From: Paraburkholderia sp. BL10I2N1
Lineage (GTDB): Bacteria; Pseudomonadota; Gammaproteobacteria; Burkholderiales; Burkholderiaceae
DNA length: 64,000 nucleotides
Assembly: GCF_004361815.1 (NCBI RefSeq)
Contig: NZ_SNWA01000001.1
Span: forward strand, 1,240,001-1,304,000
Reading direction: 5' to 3'
Shown here one piece after another: positions 949 through 38,338 of this stretch (its first letter is position 1; every line of letters begins with the position of its first letter). Position numbers and translations under genes: made by a program. A model generated the notes under the pieces. It was not told the DNA's origin. It did not search any database and worked only from the letters and a program-made list of their open reading frames with translations.

Positions 949-1902
949 TTACCGGCCCGCATTCGCGCGGAACGTATTGAACCGCGAACGCATCGACGCG
1001 CCCGTCAGGTACACCGGCGCAATCGTTTCGATGCTCGCGGGCTCGATGCCGAGTTCCGGCGCGAGCGGTCCGCTCAGCACGCTGTCTACTTTCATCGAAT
1101 CGAGGTTGTCGCGCGTGATCACCGGCTCGCCGGGCGCCAGTTCGAACGTCAGCGCCTGCAGGCGCGCCAGCGCCTCCGGCAGGCGTACGATCTTCGCGTG
1201 ACGACCAATCGTGTCGCCGCAGAACTTGACCAGCTGCTCGAGCGTGTACACGGTCGGGCCGCCGAGTTCGTACGTGCGGCCAACGGCGGCATCCAGATCG
1301 AGCACGTCGACGATTGCCTTCGCCACATCGCCCACGAACACCGGCTGGAACTTCGCATCCGGCATCGCGAGCGGAATCACCGGAAACACGCGTTGCAGGA
1401 ACGCGAACTTGTTGAGAAACGCATCCTCCGGCCCGAACACCACCGACGGCCGGAAAATCGTCGACGCCAGCGCGGCCTGACGCACGGCCTTTTCGCCATC
1501 CCCCTTCGAGCGCAGGTACATGCTCGGCCCTTTCGGATCCGCGCCGATCGCGCTCACGTGGATCAGCCGATGCACCCCCTTGCCTTCGCAGGCGGCGACA
1601 ATCTTTGTCGGCAATTCGACGTGCGCTTTCGCAAACTCCGGGCCGTACGGATTGCCGCGGCTCGAATGCAGCACCCCGACCAGATTGATCACCGCATCCG
1701 CGTTCTCGACAAAGCGTGCGAGTTCGACCGGATCGAACACATCGGTTTCGATCACGTCGATGGGCAATAGCGTGAGATGACGGGCGTTGTAGCGTCGGCG
1801 GGTGGCAATGCGCACGTCCTTGCCGAGTTCGACAAGCGCGTTCACGAGATGACTGCCAATAAACCCTGAACCGCCGACGATCGCGATGGCTTGATGTCGC
1901 AT
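949..1902 (-). CDS. NAD(P)-binding SDR-type epimerase, complex I NDUFA9-like family
   Basis: A 317-residue extended short-chain dehydrogenase fold. The dinucleotide-binding GGSGFIGSHL lies at residues 8-17, followed by VIETDVFD and VINLVGVL strands of the Rossmann fold. The family is the bacterial relative of the complex I accessory subunit NDUFA9/39 kDa, which binds NAD(P)H without a proven catalytic role. I chose the ATG at 1902 because GGGGAG lies just upstream; an in-frame start 10 codons earlier has weaker support. It lies between slt and the GST gene on the same strand. Function beyond nucleotide binding is inferred. Confidence 0.82.
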   Translation of the reverse strand: MRHQAIAIVGGSGFIGSHLVNALVELGKDVRIATRRRYNARHLTLLPIDVIETDVFDPVELARFVENADAVINLVGVLHSSRGNPYGPEFAKAHVELPTKIVAACEGKGVHRLIHVSAIGADPKGPSMYLRSKGDGEKAVRQAALASTIFRPSVVFGPEDAFLNKFAFLQRVFPVIPLAMPDAKFQPVFVGDVAKAIVDVLDLDAAVGRTYELGGPTVYTLEQLVKFCGDTIGRHAKIVRLPEALARLQALTFELAPGEPVITRDNLDSMKVDSVLSGPLAPELGIEPASIETIAPVYLTGASMRSRFNTFRANAGR

Positions 1903-1988
1903 TTTCGACTCCCCTTGTGGAAGCCGCGGCAACGGCTGGCGAGGCGGCCGCCGCGTGAGGCGCGGCGGCGTGGCGCGGGCGCTGGAAT

Positions 1989-3965
1989 TTATGGTGCGAT
2001 GTAGCCCAGACGCGCCTTCAGCGATTGCGGACGGCCTTCAAACAATGCCGCGTAGTAGACCGTGTTCGACAACACATTCTTGACGTAGTCGCGGGTTTCC
2101 TGGAACGGGATCGTCTCCGCAAAAATCGCACCCTCAACCGGATGCGCCAAACCCTGCCGCCATGCGCGCGGACGGCCGGGACCGGCGTTGTATCCAGCGG
2201 TAGCGAGTACAGCAGACCCGTCGAACTGATTGTAGATCATCGACAGATAGTTGGTGCCGAGCAGGATATTGGTGTTGATGTCGTTCATCTGCGCACGCGA
2301 GATGGGCCCAAGACCGATCTTCTTCGCGACCAGCTGCGCGGTGCCCGGCATCAACTGCATCAAGCCGCTCGCGCCCACTTCGGAACGCGCGTTCATGATG
2401 AAGCGCGACTCCTGGCGGATCAGCCCGTAAGCCCATTCGACGTCGAGGCCGGTCGCCTGCGCGTCGCGCTCGACGATATCGCGGAACGGCGACAGATAGC
2501 GCAGCGAGAAATCGTGCTCGGTCTTCGTCCGGTCGGCGGTGTTGACGGTGCGATCGTACAGCTCGATGCGGCGCGCGTATTCGGCCAGAGCCAGCAACTG
2601 GCGGTCGGTCATGCTGCGCAGCGGCCAGTTCCACTCACGATTGCCTTCGAGCCGCAGGTTCAACGCGTAGAACCGCTGCGCAAGCTGCAAGCCCGGCGTG
2701 TTGCCCGCCTGTGCGACTTCGGCGTCCGTCACGGTGGTCTTCTGGGGCACCGTGATCTTCTGGCCAAGTTCTTCGGCGGCCAGCTGGCCGTAGAAGTTGT
2801 AGCCCTGCGCGATCTGCTCGAATTCCTGATTCGCCCGCACGGTGTCGCCGCTTTGCTTCAGCGCACGCGCGTGCCAGTAAACCCACGACGGCTGGTTGCG
2901 CAGCGACGGCGGCATCTGCTCGATCGACCAGCGTACCATCGTCCAGTCGCCCGCGAGCAGCGCGGTGCGCGTGCGCCATTCGTAGGCAGGATTCGACAGC
3001 GGCGCATTCGCCGACAGGCGATACCAGTCGACGGCGGCCGGCATCTGCTTCGCCGCCGCCTGATAGGCGATCGTGCCCCAGCCGATCCCGCGTTCAGCCG
3101 CTGTGAGCGACGGCGCCACCGACCCGAAGGTCGCGGCGGCCATCGCCGGATCGTTGCGCGCCATGCGCGTGATTGCCAGCAGCGCCAGCTGATGCGACTG
3201 AGGATCGGCGCTGACGCCCGCTGCGAGCAACAGCGGCGGCGTACTCGCGGCCTGATTGAACAACACCGGATCGGGTGGCCGGTTGCCGAGCGCATCGACC
3301 AGCCTGCTGCCGGTGTTGGTTTCGTTTTGCTCGTACGCGAGACGGATCTGCTGCCAGACGTCGTCGGTGGAGAACTGCTGGTTGATCGCGAGCGACGTGA
3401 TCAGATCGACGCAGCCGTCGCCGTACACCTTCGGATCGACGAGCAACGCGCGTGCTGCATCGGCGACATTTTCGCCGCGCGCCGCGCGCGATTCGAGCGC
3501 GTAGCACTTCACCTGCGTGTCGTCGTTCAGCACGAAGCGCGCGTATTGCTCGTCGAAGTTGCGCCAGTCGTGGCGCGCGCCGAGCACGACCAGGTAGTCG
3601 TTGCGCATGCGGTCGGCGATGGCCTGGCCGTCGTACTTTTGCAGGAACGCCACCACCGGCGCGTCGGGCGCGTCGATGCGCGCATGACCTGAGCTGTCGA
3701 AGAGCTGTGGCTTGAGCTGGAAATACTCCAGATATGCCGGCGCTGGATAATCCGGGATCATGCTCGCCAGTTGGGCGGCGCGCGCTGGGTCATTATTACG
3801 CGCGGCTTCGCGAAGCTGGATGAAGGTCTGATCTGCGTCAGAGAGCTGGGACAGCTGGGAGACCGGGATGGGGCGGACGGCGGAGGCCGTGCCACATGCG
3901 ACGAGTGCCGCAGCAGCCAGCGCCGAACCGGCCGCGCGATATACTCGAAAAAGGCGTTTTGACAT
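1989..3965 (-). CDS. slt: Soluble lytic murein transglycosylase, lipoprotein
   Basis: Cleaves peptidoglycan glycan strands, leaving 1,6-anhydromuramyl ends. The 658-residue protein starts with a lipoprotein signal (hydrophobic LAAAALVAC, lipobox Cys near residue 24), so it is probably anchored in the outer membrane. A long alpha-helical superhelix region fills residues 40-450. The C-terminal SLT domain follows, with QESRF (catalytic Glu), SEVGASGLMQLMPGTA and GYNAGPGR. A much longer open frame extends upstream, but the lipoprotein start at 3965 fits the family and leaves 20 bp to the divergent fthC start. It heads a minus-strand run with the epimerase, GST and cca. Confidence 0.92.
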   Translation of the reverse strand: MSKRLFRVYRAAGSALAAAALVACGTASAVRPIPVSQLSQLSDADQTFIQLREAARNNDPARAAQLASMIPDYPAPAYLEYFQLKPQLFDSSGHARIDAPDAPVVAFLQKYDGQAIADRMRNDYLVVLGARHDWRNFDEQYARFVLNDDTQVKCYALESRAARGENVADAARALLVDPKVYGDGCVDLITSLAINQQFSTDDVWQQIRLAYEQNETNTGSRLVDALGNRPPDPVLFNQAASTPPLLLAAGVSADPQSHQLALLAITRMARNDPAMAAATFGSVAPSLTAAERGIGWGTIAYQAAAKQMPAAVDWYRLSANAPLSNPAYEWRTRTALLAGDWTMVRWSIEQMPPSLRNQPSWVYWHARALKQSGDTVRANQEFEQIAQGYNFYGQLAAEELGQKITVPQKTTVTDAEVAQAGNTPGLQLAQRFYALNLRLEGNREWNWPLRSMTDRQLLALAEYARRIELYDRTVNTADRTKTEHDFSLRYLSPFRDIVERDAQATGLDVEWAYGLIRQESRFIMNARSEVGASGLMQLMPGTAQLVAKKIGLGPISRAQMNDINTNILLGTNYLSMIYNQFDGSAVLATAGYNAGPGRPRAWRQGLAHPVEGAIFAETIPFQETRDYVKNVLSNTVYYAALFEGRPQSLKARLGYIAP

Positions 3966-35376: not shown

Positions 35377-36903
35377 ATGTCGCCTCTTTCACTGATCAAC
35401 TCGCTGCTCGGCACGGCCAGCGGCACGTCGTCCAGCGGCTCCCCGGCGAGCTCAAGCGCGCTGCCGTTTGCGCAGACGCTGCAACAGAGCATCGATTCGC
35501 AAAACAACGCGGCACGGGCGAGCGCCAGTGCGTTGCAAAACGCGTCGTCCTCGTCATCATCGTCGGCGGCTTCGTCTTCGGATTCGTCGCCGGATTCGTC
35601 GAGCGTGCACGATGTGTCGTCGCCGGACAACTCGTCGAACAGCGCGGACGCGGCCGGCAGCAAGCAGTCCTCGGACAGCACGACGGCGGCGAACCCATCG
35701 ACGGGCAGCACGCAGCAAACCTCCGGCAACGACAGCGGCAACCCGGCTGGCGGCACGACGTCGAAGCCGCAGCAGGATGCGAACACGCAGGCGACAGCGC
35801 CCACTACGGCTGCTGCGGCGGCAACCGCAGCGGCGGCGGCTGCCGCACAGGCACAGGCGCAGGCGAGCGCCGCGGCAACCACGGCGGCCACGGACGCATT
35901 GCCGGCCGACCCGGCTGCGACGGCTCCGGCCACCACGCCCGTCGCATCGACTCCGGTCAGCGGCACGAATCTCGGCAAGAAGATCGCGTCACTCGATCCG
36001 AAAGCGGTTCAGGACGGTTTGCAGGCAGCGCTGGCGGCGCTGGCGAGCGGCCAGGGCGCAGCGGCGACGCCAGCGACCACCGCCGCTACGGCGGGCACTG
36101 CGACGGCTGGCAGCGCGGACGCGACGGGGCTTGGCGGGCGCGGTGCTGGCGCGAGCGCGGGCCTGACACCGGGCGCGAAGCTTGCCGATGGAAAGGGCGG
36201 GTTGGGCGACAACGTGAAGTCGACGGTATCGAACGCCGCTGTGGCGGCGACGCCTGATGCACTCGGCGGGGGCAACGCTGGCGAGGCGCTGGCGGCCGCG
36301 AATACCGGCAATGGACAGGCCAGTTTTGCGACGCTGAAGGACGCCGCCGACTCCGCGCAAGCGGCGCTCGCCGCGACTCAGGCGGCATCTGCGGCGGCCG
36401 CCTCGAACGCCGTGTCGCCGACGACCAATCCGAACGCCATCGCGGCGGCCAGCACGACGCTGACCCCACAGGTCGGCACGCCCGACTGGGACGAAGCGCT
36501 GAGCCAGAAAGTCGTGTTTCTTTCGAATGCACACCAGCAGACGGCCGAACTGACCTTGAACCCGAAGGATCTCGGACCGCTACAGGTCGTGCTGCAAGTT
36601 GCCGATAACCATGCACATGCGTTGTTTGTTTCGCAGCATCAGCAGGTACGGGAGGCGGTGGAAGCTGCGCTTCCGAAGCTTCGCGAAGCGATGGAGCAAG
36701 GGGGGATTGGGCTTGGCAGCGCGAGTGTGAGTGATGGGTTTGCGAGGCAGACTGCCCAGCAGGGGCAAGATGGGGGTTCTGCTTTCTCCTCGCGGGGCGG
36801 TAGGGGTGGTGCTGGCGGCGCCAGTGCGGGTTCTGATGGCGCTGTCAGTGTTGCTGATGTGCCTGTTCGGCGAACTGTTGGGTTGGTTGATACTTTTGCC
36901 TGA
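35377..36903 (+). CDS. fliK: Flagellar hook-length control protein FliK
   Basis: Secreted molecular ruler that stops hook growth by switching FlhB specificity. 508 residues: about 370 of extreme Ala/Ser/Thr low complexity (including a run of alternating Ala and Gln near residue 160), then the Flg_hook C-domain with QTAELTLNPKDLGPLQVVLQV and HQQVREAVEAALPKLREAMEQGG. The last ~60 codons turn G/T-rich in the third position, unlike the rest of the operon, merging with the T/G-rich spacer behind it. It ends the fliF-K unit. Confidence 0.94.
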   Translation: MSPLSLINSLLGTASGTSSSGSPASSSALPFAQTLQQSIDSQNNAARASASALQNASSSSSSSAASSSDSSPDSSSVHDVSSPDNSSNSADAAGSKQSSDSTTAANPSTGSTQQTSGNDSGNPAGGTTSKPQQDANTQATAPTTAAAAATAAAAAAAQAQAQASAAATTAATDALPADPAATAPATTPVASTPVSGTNLGKKIASLDPKAVQDGLQAALAALASGQGAAATPATTAATAGTATAGSADATGLGGRGAGASAGLTPGAKLADGKGGLGDNVKSTVSNAAVAATPDALGGGNAGEALAAANTGNGQASFATLKDAADSAQAALAATQAASAAAASNAVSPTTNPNAIAAASTTLTPQVGTPDWDEALSQKVVFLSNAHQQTAELTLNPKDLGPLQVVLQVADNHAHALFVSQHQQVREAVEAALPKLREAMEQGGIGLGSASVSDGFARQTAQQGQDGGSAFSSRGGRGGAGGASAGSDGAVSVADVPVRRTVGLVDTFA

Positions 36904-37825
36904 TTTTTTTGCTGTATTTTTAGTTTGTGTTTTTTTGGTTGTCTACCTGGTTTGTTGGCCTTTCCCTGTTTTGCTTTTGGTTTATTGGCGTCGCCCCTGT
37001 GCGGGGTAGCACCTACTTTTCTTTGTCCCCCAAGGGGACTTCCTTCGGGGCGTCTTCCAAAGAAAAGTAGGCAAAAGAAAGGCGCTTCGAAAATTTATCT
37101 GTTCCCGGTGTGTGACTCACGGGGAACGGCAACCCATGAAGTGTCGCCCTCGCAGGGGACGCGACATTGGTCCGACGCCAGACCGTCCCTCGCGCAGTGC
37201 CGCTTGTGACAAAGGGCTCGTTCATCCCGCTCCGCACTACGTGCGTCACGGATGGGTTCTTCCGGCAGGGTGCCGTTTGCACCCCAGCGGTTTGCCCCGC
37301 TCCGCGTCGAGTTGGTAGGGAAGCCTGACGAAGTGGCGAGGCGGCAAGGCGGGGGTTATGCCGGTCGGCGACGCGCGTAGCGCGGAGTCGGATGGATGAA
37401 TGCTTTGTCACACGCGGCACTGCGCGAGGGACGGTCTGGCGTCGGGCCAATGTCGGGTCCCCTGTGAGGGCGACACTTCATGGAGTGCCATTCCCCGCTA
37501 GCGACACACCTTGACGAGGTGAGTTTTCGAAGCGCCTTTCTTTTGCCTACTTTTCTTTGGAAGACGCCCCGAAGGAAGTCCCCTGGGGGGACAAAGAAAA
37601 GTAGGTGCCGCCCCGCACAGGGGCAACGCCAATAAACCAGAAGCAAAACAAGGAAAGGCACCACCCCAAGCAAACAACAACAAACAAAAACAACAACAAA
37701 CAAAAACCCCCGCCGGCAGGCTCAAACACATGAGCTAACCAGAATAACCCCTTCTTTTCGACCCATCGCAAACCCGTAAGAAACCTGAGAATTCACCTTA
37801 CAGAATTGAGGCAATCAAAAACCCC
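36904..37825. other. Non-coding 922-bp spacer between fliK and fliL
   Basis: Unusual for this packed locus. The left ~60 bp are T/G-rich and the right ~140 bp are C/A-rich, framing a large imperfect inverted repeat (annotated separately). Open frames inside are mirror copies of each other and carry no recognisable protein. A promoter for fliL-R should lie in 37690-37815, but I cannot place it. The fliL ribosome site is poor (GAGG 15 bases before the ATG). Confidence 0.75.
36957..37660. repeat. ~700-bp imperfect inverted repeat (two ~290-bp arms) between fliK and fliL
   Basis: The left arm (about 36957-37246) and right arm (about 37373-37660) are reverse complements at roughly 80-90 % by eye, separated by a ~125-bp centre. 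Each arm carries nested hairpins. One is the GCCCCTGTGCGGGG-type stem. Another is CCTACTTTTCTTTG paired with CAAAGAAAAGTAGG enclosing a GGGGAC/CTTCCTTCGGGG segment (37012-37070; mirror 37547-37605). Shared blocks further in include ATGAAGTGTCGCCCTC and GACGCCAGACCGTCCCTCGC. It encodes no protein I can identify. It could be two head-to-head copies of a dispersed intergenic repeat, a MITE-like element, or a structured RNA source. Confidence 0.85.
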
Positions 37826-38338
37826 ATGGCAACCACGACCGCAAACCAGCAAGCCAGCGCGCAGCCGTCCTCACCGGGCCTGATGAAGCGCATCATCGTG
37901 ATCCTGCTGATCGTACTGGTCGCCGCTGGTGCGGCCGGAGCGGCCACCTGGTTCTTCATGTCCAGAAGCGCCCCGGCGCAAGCCGCCTCCACATCGCCGG
38001 CAGCACCGGCGCCCAGCCCGATCCCGGTGTTCTTCCCGCTCGAGCCGATGACCGTGAATCTCCAGTCCGACGACGGCCAGCAGCACTATCTGCGCATCGG
38101 CCTCACGCTCAAGCTCAACGATCAGCAGACTCAGCAACACCTCGCCGAACACATGCCGGAAATCCGCAGCCGTGTCCTGCTCGCACTGTCGAACAAACAT
38201 CCGGAAGAACTCGCGCCGCTCGAAGGCAAGCACGCGCTCGCCAAAGAACTCGAAACGCTGATCGAGCAGCCGACCGAAACGGGCGCTCAGCCAGTACACG
38301 TCGCCGATGTGCTGTTCACCGAGTTCGTCGTGCAGTGA
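37826..38338 (+). CDS. fliL: Flagellar basal-body-associated protein FliL
   Basis: A single-pass inner-membrane protein beside the stators, 170 residues. It has a short cytoplasmic N-tail and a membrane span at about 21-43 (MKRIIVILLIVLVAAGAAGA). A Pro/Ala linker follows, then the stomatin-like periplasmic domain FFPLEPMTVNLQSDDGQQHY to the end (VADVLFTEFVVQ). First gene of the fliL-M-N-O-P-Q-R unit. Its spacer from fliK suggests its own promoter. Confidence 0.94.
   Translation: MATTTANQQASAQPSSPGLMKRIIVILLIVLVAAGAAGAATWFFMSRSAPAQAASTSPAAPAPSPIPVFFPLEPMTVNLQSDDGQQHYLRIGLTLKLNDQQTQQHLAEHMPEIRSRVLLALSNKHPEELAPLEGKHALAKELETLIEQPTETGAQPVHVADVLFTEFVVQ

Follow-up and report, generated by a model that had tools for sequence, protein, structure and literature searches.

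A REP-like gene-end palindrome between fliK and fliL of Paraburkholderia as a possible two-way transcription boundary

The window, that is the whole stretch of 64,000 nucleotides of Paraburkholderia sp. BL10I2N1 that was analysed, contains the flagellar genes fliK and fliL. Between them lies an inverted repeat (36958-37659) of two 295-nt arms, which are 88% complementary and are separated by a 112-nt spacer. From outside to inside, each arm is composed of a tail (GCCTTTCC...GGTTTATTGGCG), a GC hairpin (HP1), a perfect hairpin (HP2) and a long inner arm. The features of the locus are as follows:

35377-36903, + strand: fliK, flanking gene
36958-37252, + strand: left arm of the palindrome
36990-37010, - strand: left HP1, a REP-like hairpin, which on the + strand reads GTCGCCCC TGTGC GGGGTAGC
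37012-37071, no strand: left HP2 (CCTACTTTTCTTTG / CAAAGAAAAGTAGG), a perfect 14-bp hairpin with halves at 37012-37025 and 37058-37071
37253-37364, no strand: spacer, with an inverted counterpart in the copy at C1:1582535-1583196 (by eye)
37365-37659, - strand: right arm of the palindrome
37546-37605, no strand: right HP2, a perfect 14-bp hairpin with halves at 37546-37559 and 37592-37605
37595-37675, + strand: match to Rfam RF02421 (Bp1_684), 30.4 bits (gathering score 44), with a mirror match at 36937-37022 on the - strand
37607-37627, + strand: right HP1, which together with the GTAGG head at 37601-37605 has the REP layout
37749-37769, + strand: 21-nt promoter-like block CCCTTCTTTTCGACCCATCGC upstream of fliL
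37826-38338, + strand: fliL, flanking gene

With up to one mismatch, CAAAGAAAAGTAGG is matched four times in the 64-kb window, always within the element (mean of 100 shuffles 0.00). The RNA fold of the element, which the sequence-only reading of this DNA had proposed to compute, reaches -608.8 kcal/mol, far beyond the -291.9 (sd 4.0) of 20 shuffles. The same reading had described reverse-complement arms of ~290 bp with perfect hairpins inside them and several sequence blocks kept in both; this agrees with the measured arms, with the HP2 found in each and with the presence of the named blocks in both (by eye).

Concerning the same site in relatives, fliL was matched in 18 of the 19 genus genomes searched. 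The element or its remains are found between fliK and fliL in nine of the 18 (our own genome, G101, G081, G064, G053, G055, G049, G068 and G121); the G101 locus ends inside the element, the G053 copy is short and the right arm of G121 is decayed. In nine genomes with a fliL match the motif was not found with either the exact or a looser pattern. Four of these (G023, G003, G085 and G025) still have 346-480 nt between the called upstream gene and fliL, so the palindrome occupies a spacer that exists without it. The comparison of these spacers, also proposed in the sequence-only reading, bears on its view that the repeat breaks the flagellar operon: the position between fliK and fliL is right, but 'breaks' is too strong given such gaps without the motif, and a newly broken operon is not supported. 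The block CCCTTCTTTTCGACCCATCGC, possibly a flagellar promoter, is identical in six of the nine species aligned (G101 left out) and one base off in the other three, and is kept with or without the palindrome.

The element is a member of a dispersed family. In our own genome (9.2 Mb, four contigs) the left arm has 27 DNA matches, many of them partial, and 13 exact HP2 hairpins were counted. Every one of them lies on contig C1, at 0.24-1.58 Mb, and together they make up six two-ended palindromes and one single hairpin. Across the genus, the HP2 pattern is present in 96 of 144 genomes, with 1-365 per genome and zero control matches; the exact hairpin is missing from 48 of the 144, and the element is therefore dispensable. 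A slightly degenerate HP2 pattern was found in four genomes of an even sample of 300 from the order Burkholderiales, two of the four being Paraburkholderia. Among the matches listed, most are from Paraburkholderia, and others are from Trinickia, Burkholderia sp., Xenophilus and uncultured Ralstonia and Variovorax bins. Whole palindromes covered by self-alignment measure 515-863 nt. The genome with 365 hairpins (G134) would, at ~0.7 kb per hairpin pair, hold ~1.3% of its sequence in them by arithmetic; on its contig C1 the elements are spread over at least 2.1 Mb, and in other species they are also found on large plasmid-type replicons. Both the dispersed element that had been suspected from the window and the tentative view of AAAGAAAAGTAGG-type repeats as common in Paraburkholderia are borne out by these matches, and the contrary case, a unique sequence with no copies elsewhere, does not apply.

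Some copies in other Burkholderiales (L348, L155, L113 and L079) are HP1-HP2 units with other inner sequence, single-sided as read and near gene ends. Also, the short-read contigs at L076, L098, L100, L106, L112 and L297 seem to stop inside a palindrome or within tens of bases of one, which is probably an assembly effect.

The placement of the copies was determined with gene orientations from a simple gene caller of our own, which recovered the fli genes of the window. In 1.2 Mb of a further genome, G021, none of 60 HP2 lies inside a called gene; the element is found in 20 of 139 convergent, 12 of 615 tandem and 0 of 139 divergent neighbour pairs (convergent vs divergent, Fisher 9e-7), and the 75 divergent gaps longer than 300 nt are all without it. 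For G134, in loci chosen around elements, 26 of 42 elements are between convergent and 16 between tandem genes, with none between divergent genes (background 17, 121 and 38, respectively). The six elements of our own genome divide into two convergent and four tandem cases, and in both convergent cases the called left neighbour seems to be an inserted transposase (read for L029). The 13 elements in genome-contig loci comprise five convergent, seven tandem and one divergent, with three more at edges; at the strain locus L368:28951 an element was called between divergent genes, and in one annotated record it lies between the convergent CDS of an MFS transporter and a hypothetical gene. Mapping of copies relative to gene 3' ends had been suggested beforehand, and it gives up to 365 hairpins per genome, placed at gene 3' ends with a bias toward convergent ones.

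The 100 nt outside the palindrome, reading in, consist of 5.8% A, 21% C, 34% G and 39% T, against 19, 31, 31 and 20% at control 3' ends. In G134 the flanks contain degenerate tandem copies of the outer unit (by eye). Outside the elements at L367 and L370, TTTTGC/GCAAAA-type tandem repeats adjoin the palindrome, and their copy number differs between strains.

The palindromes occupy fixed sites. G134 and G021 are two species, since the genome set holds one genome per species. Of the 45 G134 elements examined, the G021 stretch contains both flanks for 27 and neither flank for 18; all 27 testable sites are occupied in G021, with flanks 90-97% alike and all four HP2 halves exact. Starting from G021, 26 of 29 elements, those that could be compared with the G134 loci used, were matched. 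Four of these 27 sites have a gap that is extended by ~1.4 kb in just one of the two species. An IS66 transposase is encoded in one of the inserts and an IS256 transposase in another; the remaining two are similar to the IS256 insert (91% when the palindrome is counted in; 71% over 1182 nt). The IS256 and IS66 insertions (L235:3640-5576 and L329:5750-7230) lie inside palindromes of G134 and G021, each in one species only. As insertion sequences (IS) differ at four sites while all 27 palindromes are shared, IS turn over on that time scale and the palindromes do not. P. caribensis MWAP64 and 852011 share the element at 3/3 sites with both flanks in common. All seven records examined for another site carry the element at it (F2, PGU16, 22B1P, PGU19, MBA4, 852011 and MWAP64); PGU19 and MBA4 have ~1.1 and ~1.4 kb extra between the ends there, and PGU16 has one base changed in one HP2 half, so HP2 is not wholly fixed. 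None of the 27/27, 3/3 and 7/7 sets contains an empty site or, with it, an occupied/empty polymorphism; no target duplication was identified, no empty site being near enough to define a junction, and apart from the inserted IS no transposase was seen between palindrome ends. Judged from these sequences the palindromes do not look mobile at present, and the earlier suggestion of a non-autonomous mobile unit is unsupported as far as current mobility goes.

On C1 of our own genome, three elements have an IS inside HP1 (L029 ~1502-2867, L030 ~1670-3035 and L034 ~1659-3024). The transposase inserted at L029 is of the IS4 family (NF033592), with a near-identical ORF in L034 (by eye), and arm positions 40-49 recur on either side of the IS in L029 and L030.

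The ends of the palindromes are nearly invariant and the interiors change fast. In five close comparisons (PGU16 and PGU19 pairs were left out, as the strict pattern missed both) the interior changes 3.7-20 times faster than the flanks, with 0-2 substitutions per 62-nt end vs 12-56 per ~420-nt interior. The four P. caribensis comparisons give 2.9-13.4% for the interior (12-56 per ~420 nt) and 0.7-1.0% for the flanks; F2 vs 22B1P gives 5.0% and 1.2%, and the more distant F2 vs 852011 gives 18.4% and 9.4%, with three and two differences in the ends. Looking at 60-nt windows in P. caribensis, a paralog of the other strain is a better match (by more than four) than the ortholog in 8, 0, 10 and 6 of 13 windows at sites 1-4, and in the reverse direction in 2, 7 and 7 of 13 at sites 1, 3 and 4; setting the best of several paralogs against one ortholog favours paralogs somewhat. 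In the strongest window the paralog matches 60/60 and the ortholog 25/60. Orthologs in six G134/G021 pairs (0.69-0.85) resemble each other no more closely than do paralogs of the same genome (mean 0.82). Ectopic exchange among the dispersed copies is the best reading of the interior change, and we propose that the palindromes stay alike because these copies convert one another.

At fliK-fliL in six species, arms of the same element are 0.76 alike (0.70-0.85), against a mean of the best cross-species values of 0.67; the G049 and G068 arms reach 0.84 across species, and fliL is 0.78-0.82 alike to that of our own genome. Arms of the same element resemble each other more than arms with swapped partners do, both in our own genome (15 of 2000 permutations reach the value) and at fliK-fliL (2/2000 with seven species, 16/2000 with six). 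They resemble each other less than swapped arms in G134 (2000/2000) and G021 (1999/2000), because two arm types exist near the centre (columns 220-280) and an element has one of each (42/42 in G134, 28/28 in G021; also 12/12 in the strain set). Arm-to-arm copying as the sole homogeniser is thereby rejected. The own partner is the nearest neighbour for 4 of 12 arms in our own genome and for 0 of 84 in G134. Segment 1 is of type ab in 12 strain elements; G021 has 22 ab and 6 bb, and G134 has 9 ab, 21 aa and 12 unclear, so exchange between loci seems weightier there than exchange within the element.

Arm mismatches of the G-T and A-C kinds number 55 vs 60 at fliK-fliL and 479 vs 569 in G134 (p 0.006, a slight opposite bias). 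The lack of a G-U excess implies that pairing is at the DNA level or serves both strands, and it speaks against strand-specific RNA folding. Based on 23 hairpins, HP2 has five pairs (10 cells) changed on both sides and none changed on one side, with 1 of 322 cells unpaired; these figures are for HP2 alone, not the full arms, and the pattern used to pick the hairpins tolerated change at certain positions only. Differences between strains disrupt an arm pair in 82 cases and create one in 34, so what is selected may not be the long pairing as such. Selection on structure, as put forward in the sequence-only reading, is thus upheld in part: arms are kept complementary in the clade and HP2 co-varies, whereas a strand-specific folded RNA is disfavoured.

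Palindromes of such length are considered unstable in bacteria. Within the genus, 15 of 144 genomes have an SbcD that exceeds the family cut-off, as do 8 of 14 control genomes; a match at E 0.001 or better is found in 126 of the 144, most of those listed being low-scoring and partial. Since 13 of the 15 genomes with SbcD over the cut-off carry HP2, its absence is not required, and it was discarded as a precondition for the palindromes. With an SbcD above the cut-off so rare, the genus may tolerate long palindromes more readily.

Our interpretation, held tentatively and a little short of even confidence, is that the fliK-fliL sequence is a REP-like gene-end palindrome acting as a two-way transcription boundary. 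The comparisons above show its family to be dispersed, with 3'-end placement, fixed sites, near-invariant ends and a fast interior exchanged between loci. We infer the boundary role, and a transcription insulator is our leading guess. Two conserved end modules (HP1 with its GTAGG head, then HP2) point outward, one to the gene on each side, and the mutually inverted arms connect them. A polymerase arriving from either gene would transcribe a leader rich in G and U, followed by HP1, HP2 and a very long hairpin, which would stop or weaken read-through into the neighbour and may protect or trim the 3' end of the mRNA. The sequence beyond the palindrome, C/A-rich and poorer in G, would suit Rho.

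The same layout could belong to a selfish, non-autonomous element of the REPIN/MITE type, whose insertion gene ends merely tolerate and whose movement has stopped or is rare. Its REP-like ends (GTAGG plus hairpin), the inverted pair with a variable paired spacer, an HP2 count from 0 to 365 among congeners and the absence of HP2 from called genes agree with this. We regard it as unlikely, given 27/27 sites common to two species whose IS differ at four of these, the lack of an identified target duplication and the 75 empty divergent gaps, though insertions there could be purged. Concerning a RAYT flanked by its own repeats, none of 14 PF01797 (Y1) loci in five genomes carries the motif, and ten loci at RAYT-model hits contain only isolated GTAGG/CCTAC without HP2. 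Such hits are found in 143 of 144 genomes (1-5 each, all below the cut-off) whether hairpins are present or not, and G134 with its 365 hairpins has one low-scoring Y1 hit. Mobilisation by a RAYT was rejected, as no REP-type transposase lies beside the copies tested. A non-functional repeat kept alike by gene conversion alone, with ends that are its best-converted or recombination-active part, would suit the strong ectopic exchange and the 48 of 144 genomes without exact HP2. The bias to convergent gene ends, the avoidance of divergent gaps and the conservation of the ends across species despite a replaced interior make it distinctly improbable.

Two further readings give the element a different function. 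It could serve as DNA to which a protein of chromosome organisation or replication binds by way of the hairpin arms, as the symmetry, the DNA-level pairing and the clustering of all 13 hairpins of our own genome on C1 (0.24-1.58 Mb) might suggest; elsewhere the elements also lie on plasmid-type replicons and extend over at least 2.1 Mb of C1 in G134, and we think this very unlikely. We know of no protein that binds the hairpin arms. A discrete trans-acting regulatory RNA, following the Rfam view of Bp1_684 as an sRNA, draws on the match of RF02421 to both ends, below threshold, and on a B. pseudomallei member listed as validated by RT-PCR (PMC3521395). The dispersal of the element at many gene ends, the lack of a wobble excess (55 vs 60; 479 vs 569) and the lack of one-sided HP2 variants leave it highly improbable.

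If the boundary reading is extended to the genus, a wider picture is conceivable, about which we are more doubtful than confident: a RAYT-free, site-locked superfamily of giant REP-like palindromes, with as many as hundreds of hairpins that pair into elements of 0.5-0.9 kb, would form a genome-wide gene-conversion network marking 3' gene borders, chiefly convergent ones, with ends kept by function and interiors reshuffled between loci within species, and long palindromes would be stably used, not purged, where few genomes have a clear SbcD. Judging by the number of hairpins, certain genomes in the genus hold well over a hundred palindromes at fixed places. Two matters would become testable through them: how convergent genes stay apart, and how non-coding repeats at dispersed sites undergo concerted evolution. 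They further point to an Rfam sRNA family (Bp1_684) being a repeat terminus, and some of the contig breaks in short-read assemblies may be due to them.

We found no description of such a gene-end palindrome in the literature searched, which was mostly without subscription journals and preprints, and the accessible text of a survey of stem-loop families in 40 genomes does not name Burkholderia (PMC2267715). A REP is described, in the text available, as a GTAG head adjoining an imperfect palindrome (PMC2817692), and a REPIN as an inverted REP pair with a less conserved but pairing spacer, distributed randomly in extragenic space (PMC3116915). The ends studied here have the layout GTAGG-TGCCGCCCC-GCACA-GGGGC, in which the GTAGG head is kept in most variants and the HP1 stem varies; a GT(A/G)G head with an imperfect palindrome and an inverted doublet with a pairing spacer are thus both present. 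Like REP, REPIN and BIME sequences, the palindromes have a GTAG head, inverted pairs, a pairing spacer, high intergenic copy number and compensatory changes. Unlike the short REP/REPIN doublets, they are 515-863 nt long, contain a second conserved hairpin (HP2), are biased to gene ends and convergent pairs, are fixed in site between two species and have no RAYT beside the tested copies. With MITEs they share a non-coding, dispersed nature and terminal inverted repeats, but the arms make up nearly the whole palindrome, no target duplication or parent transposon was identified and no site turnover was seen.

The position between convergent genes and the symmetric hairpins are also those of intrinsic bidirectional terminators, whereas the palindrome is far longer and has no regular T-run directly after the stem. 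A terminator scan gave a match at 37627-37607 (-), with two in the region vs 2.3 in shuffles, and HP1 with its tail passes another terminator rule in 10 of 38 ends. Between stop codon and element, intrinsic terminators are predicted in 27 of 63 cases (shuffled mean 16.0), and in a sample of 200 control 3' ends there are 58 (shuffled 8.4), so they are not clearly rarer or commoner by the element. Lastly, one palindrome end aligns to positions 1-113 of the RF02421 model (Bp1_684, Bp1_Cand684_SIPHT); both ends match it below the gathering score (30.4 vs 44 bits), and three further loci gave no match at that score. The palindrome end shares sequence and HP1 structure with this family; Rfam lists one end as an sRNA, whereas in our case that end terminates a dispersed palindrome. 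For the B. pseudomallei member a possible trans role was suggested because its neighbours differ (PMC3521395); such differences would follow more simply from a repeat placed at gene ends.
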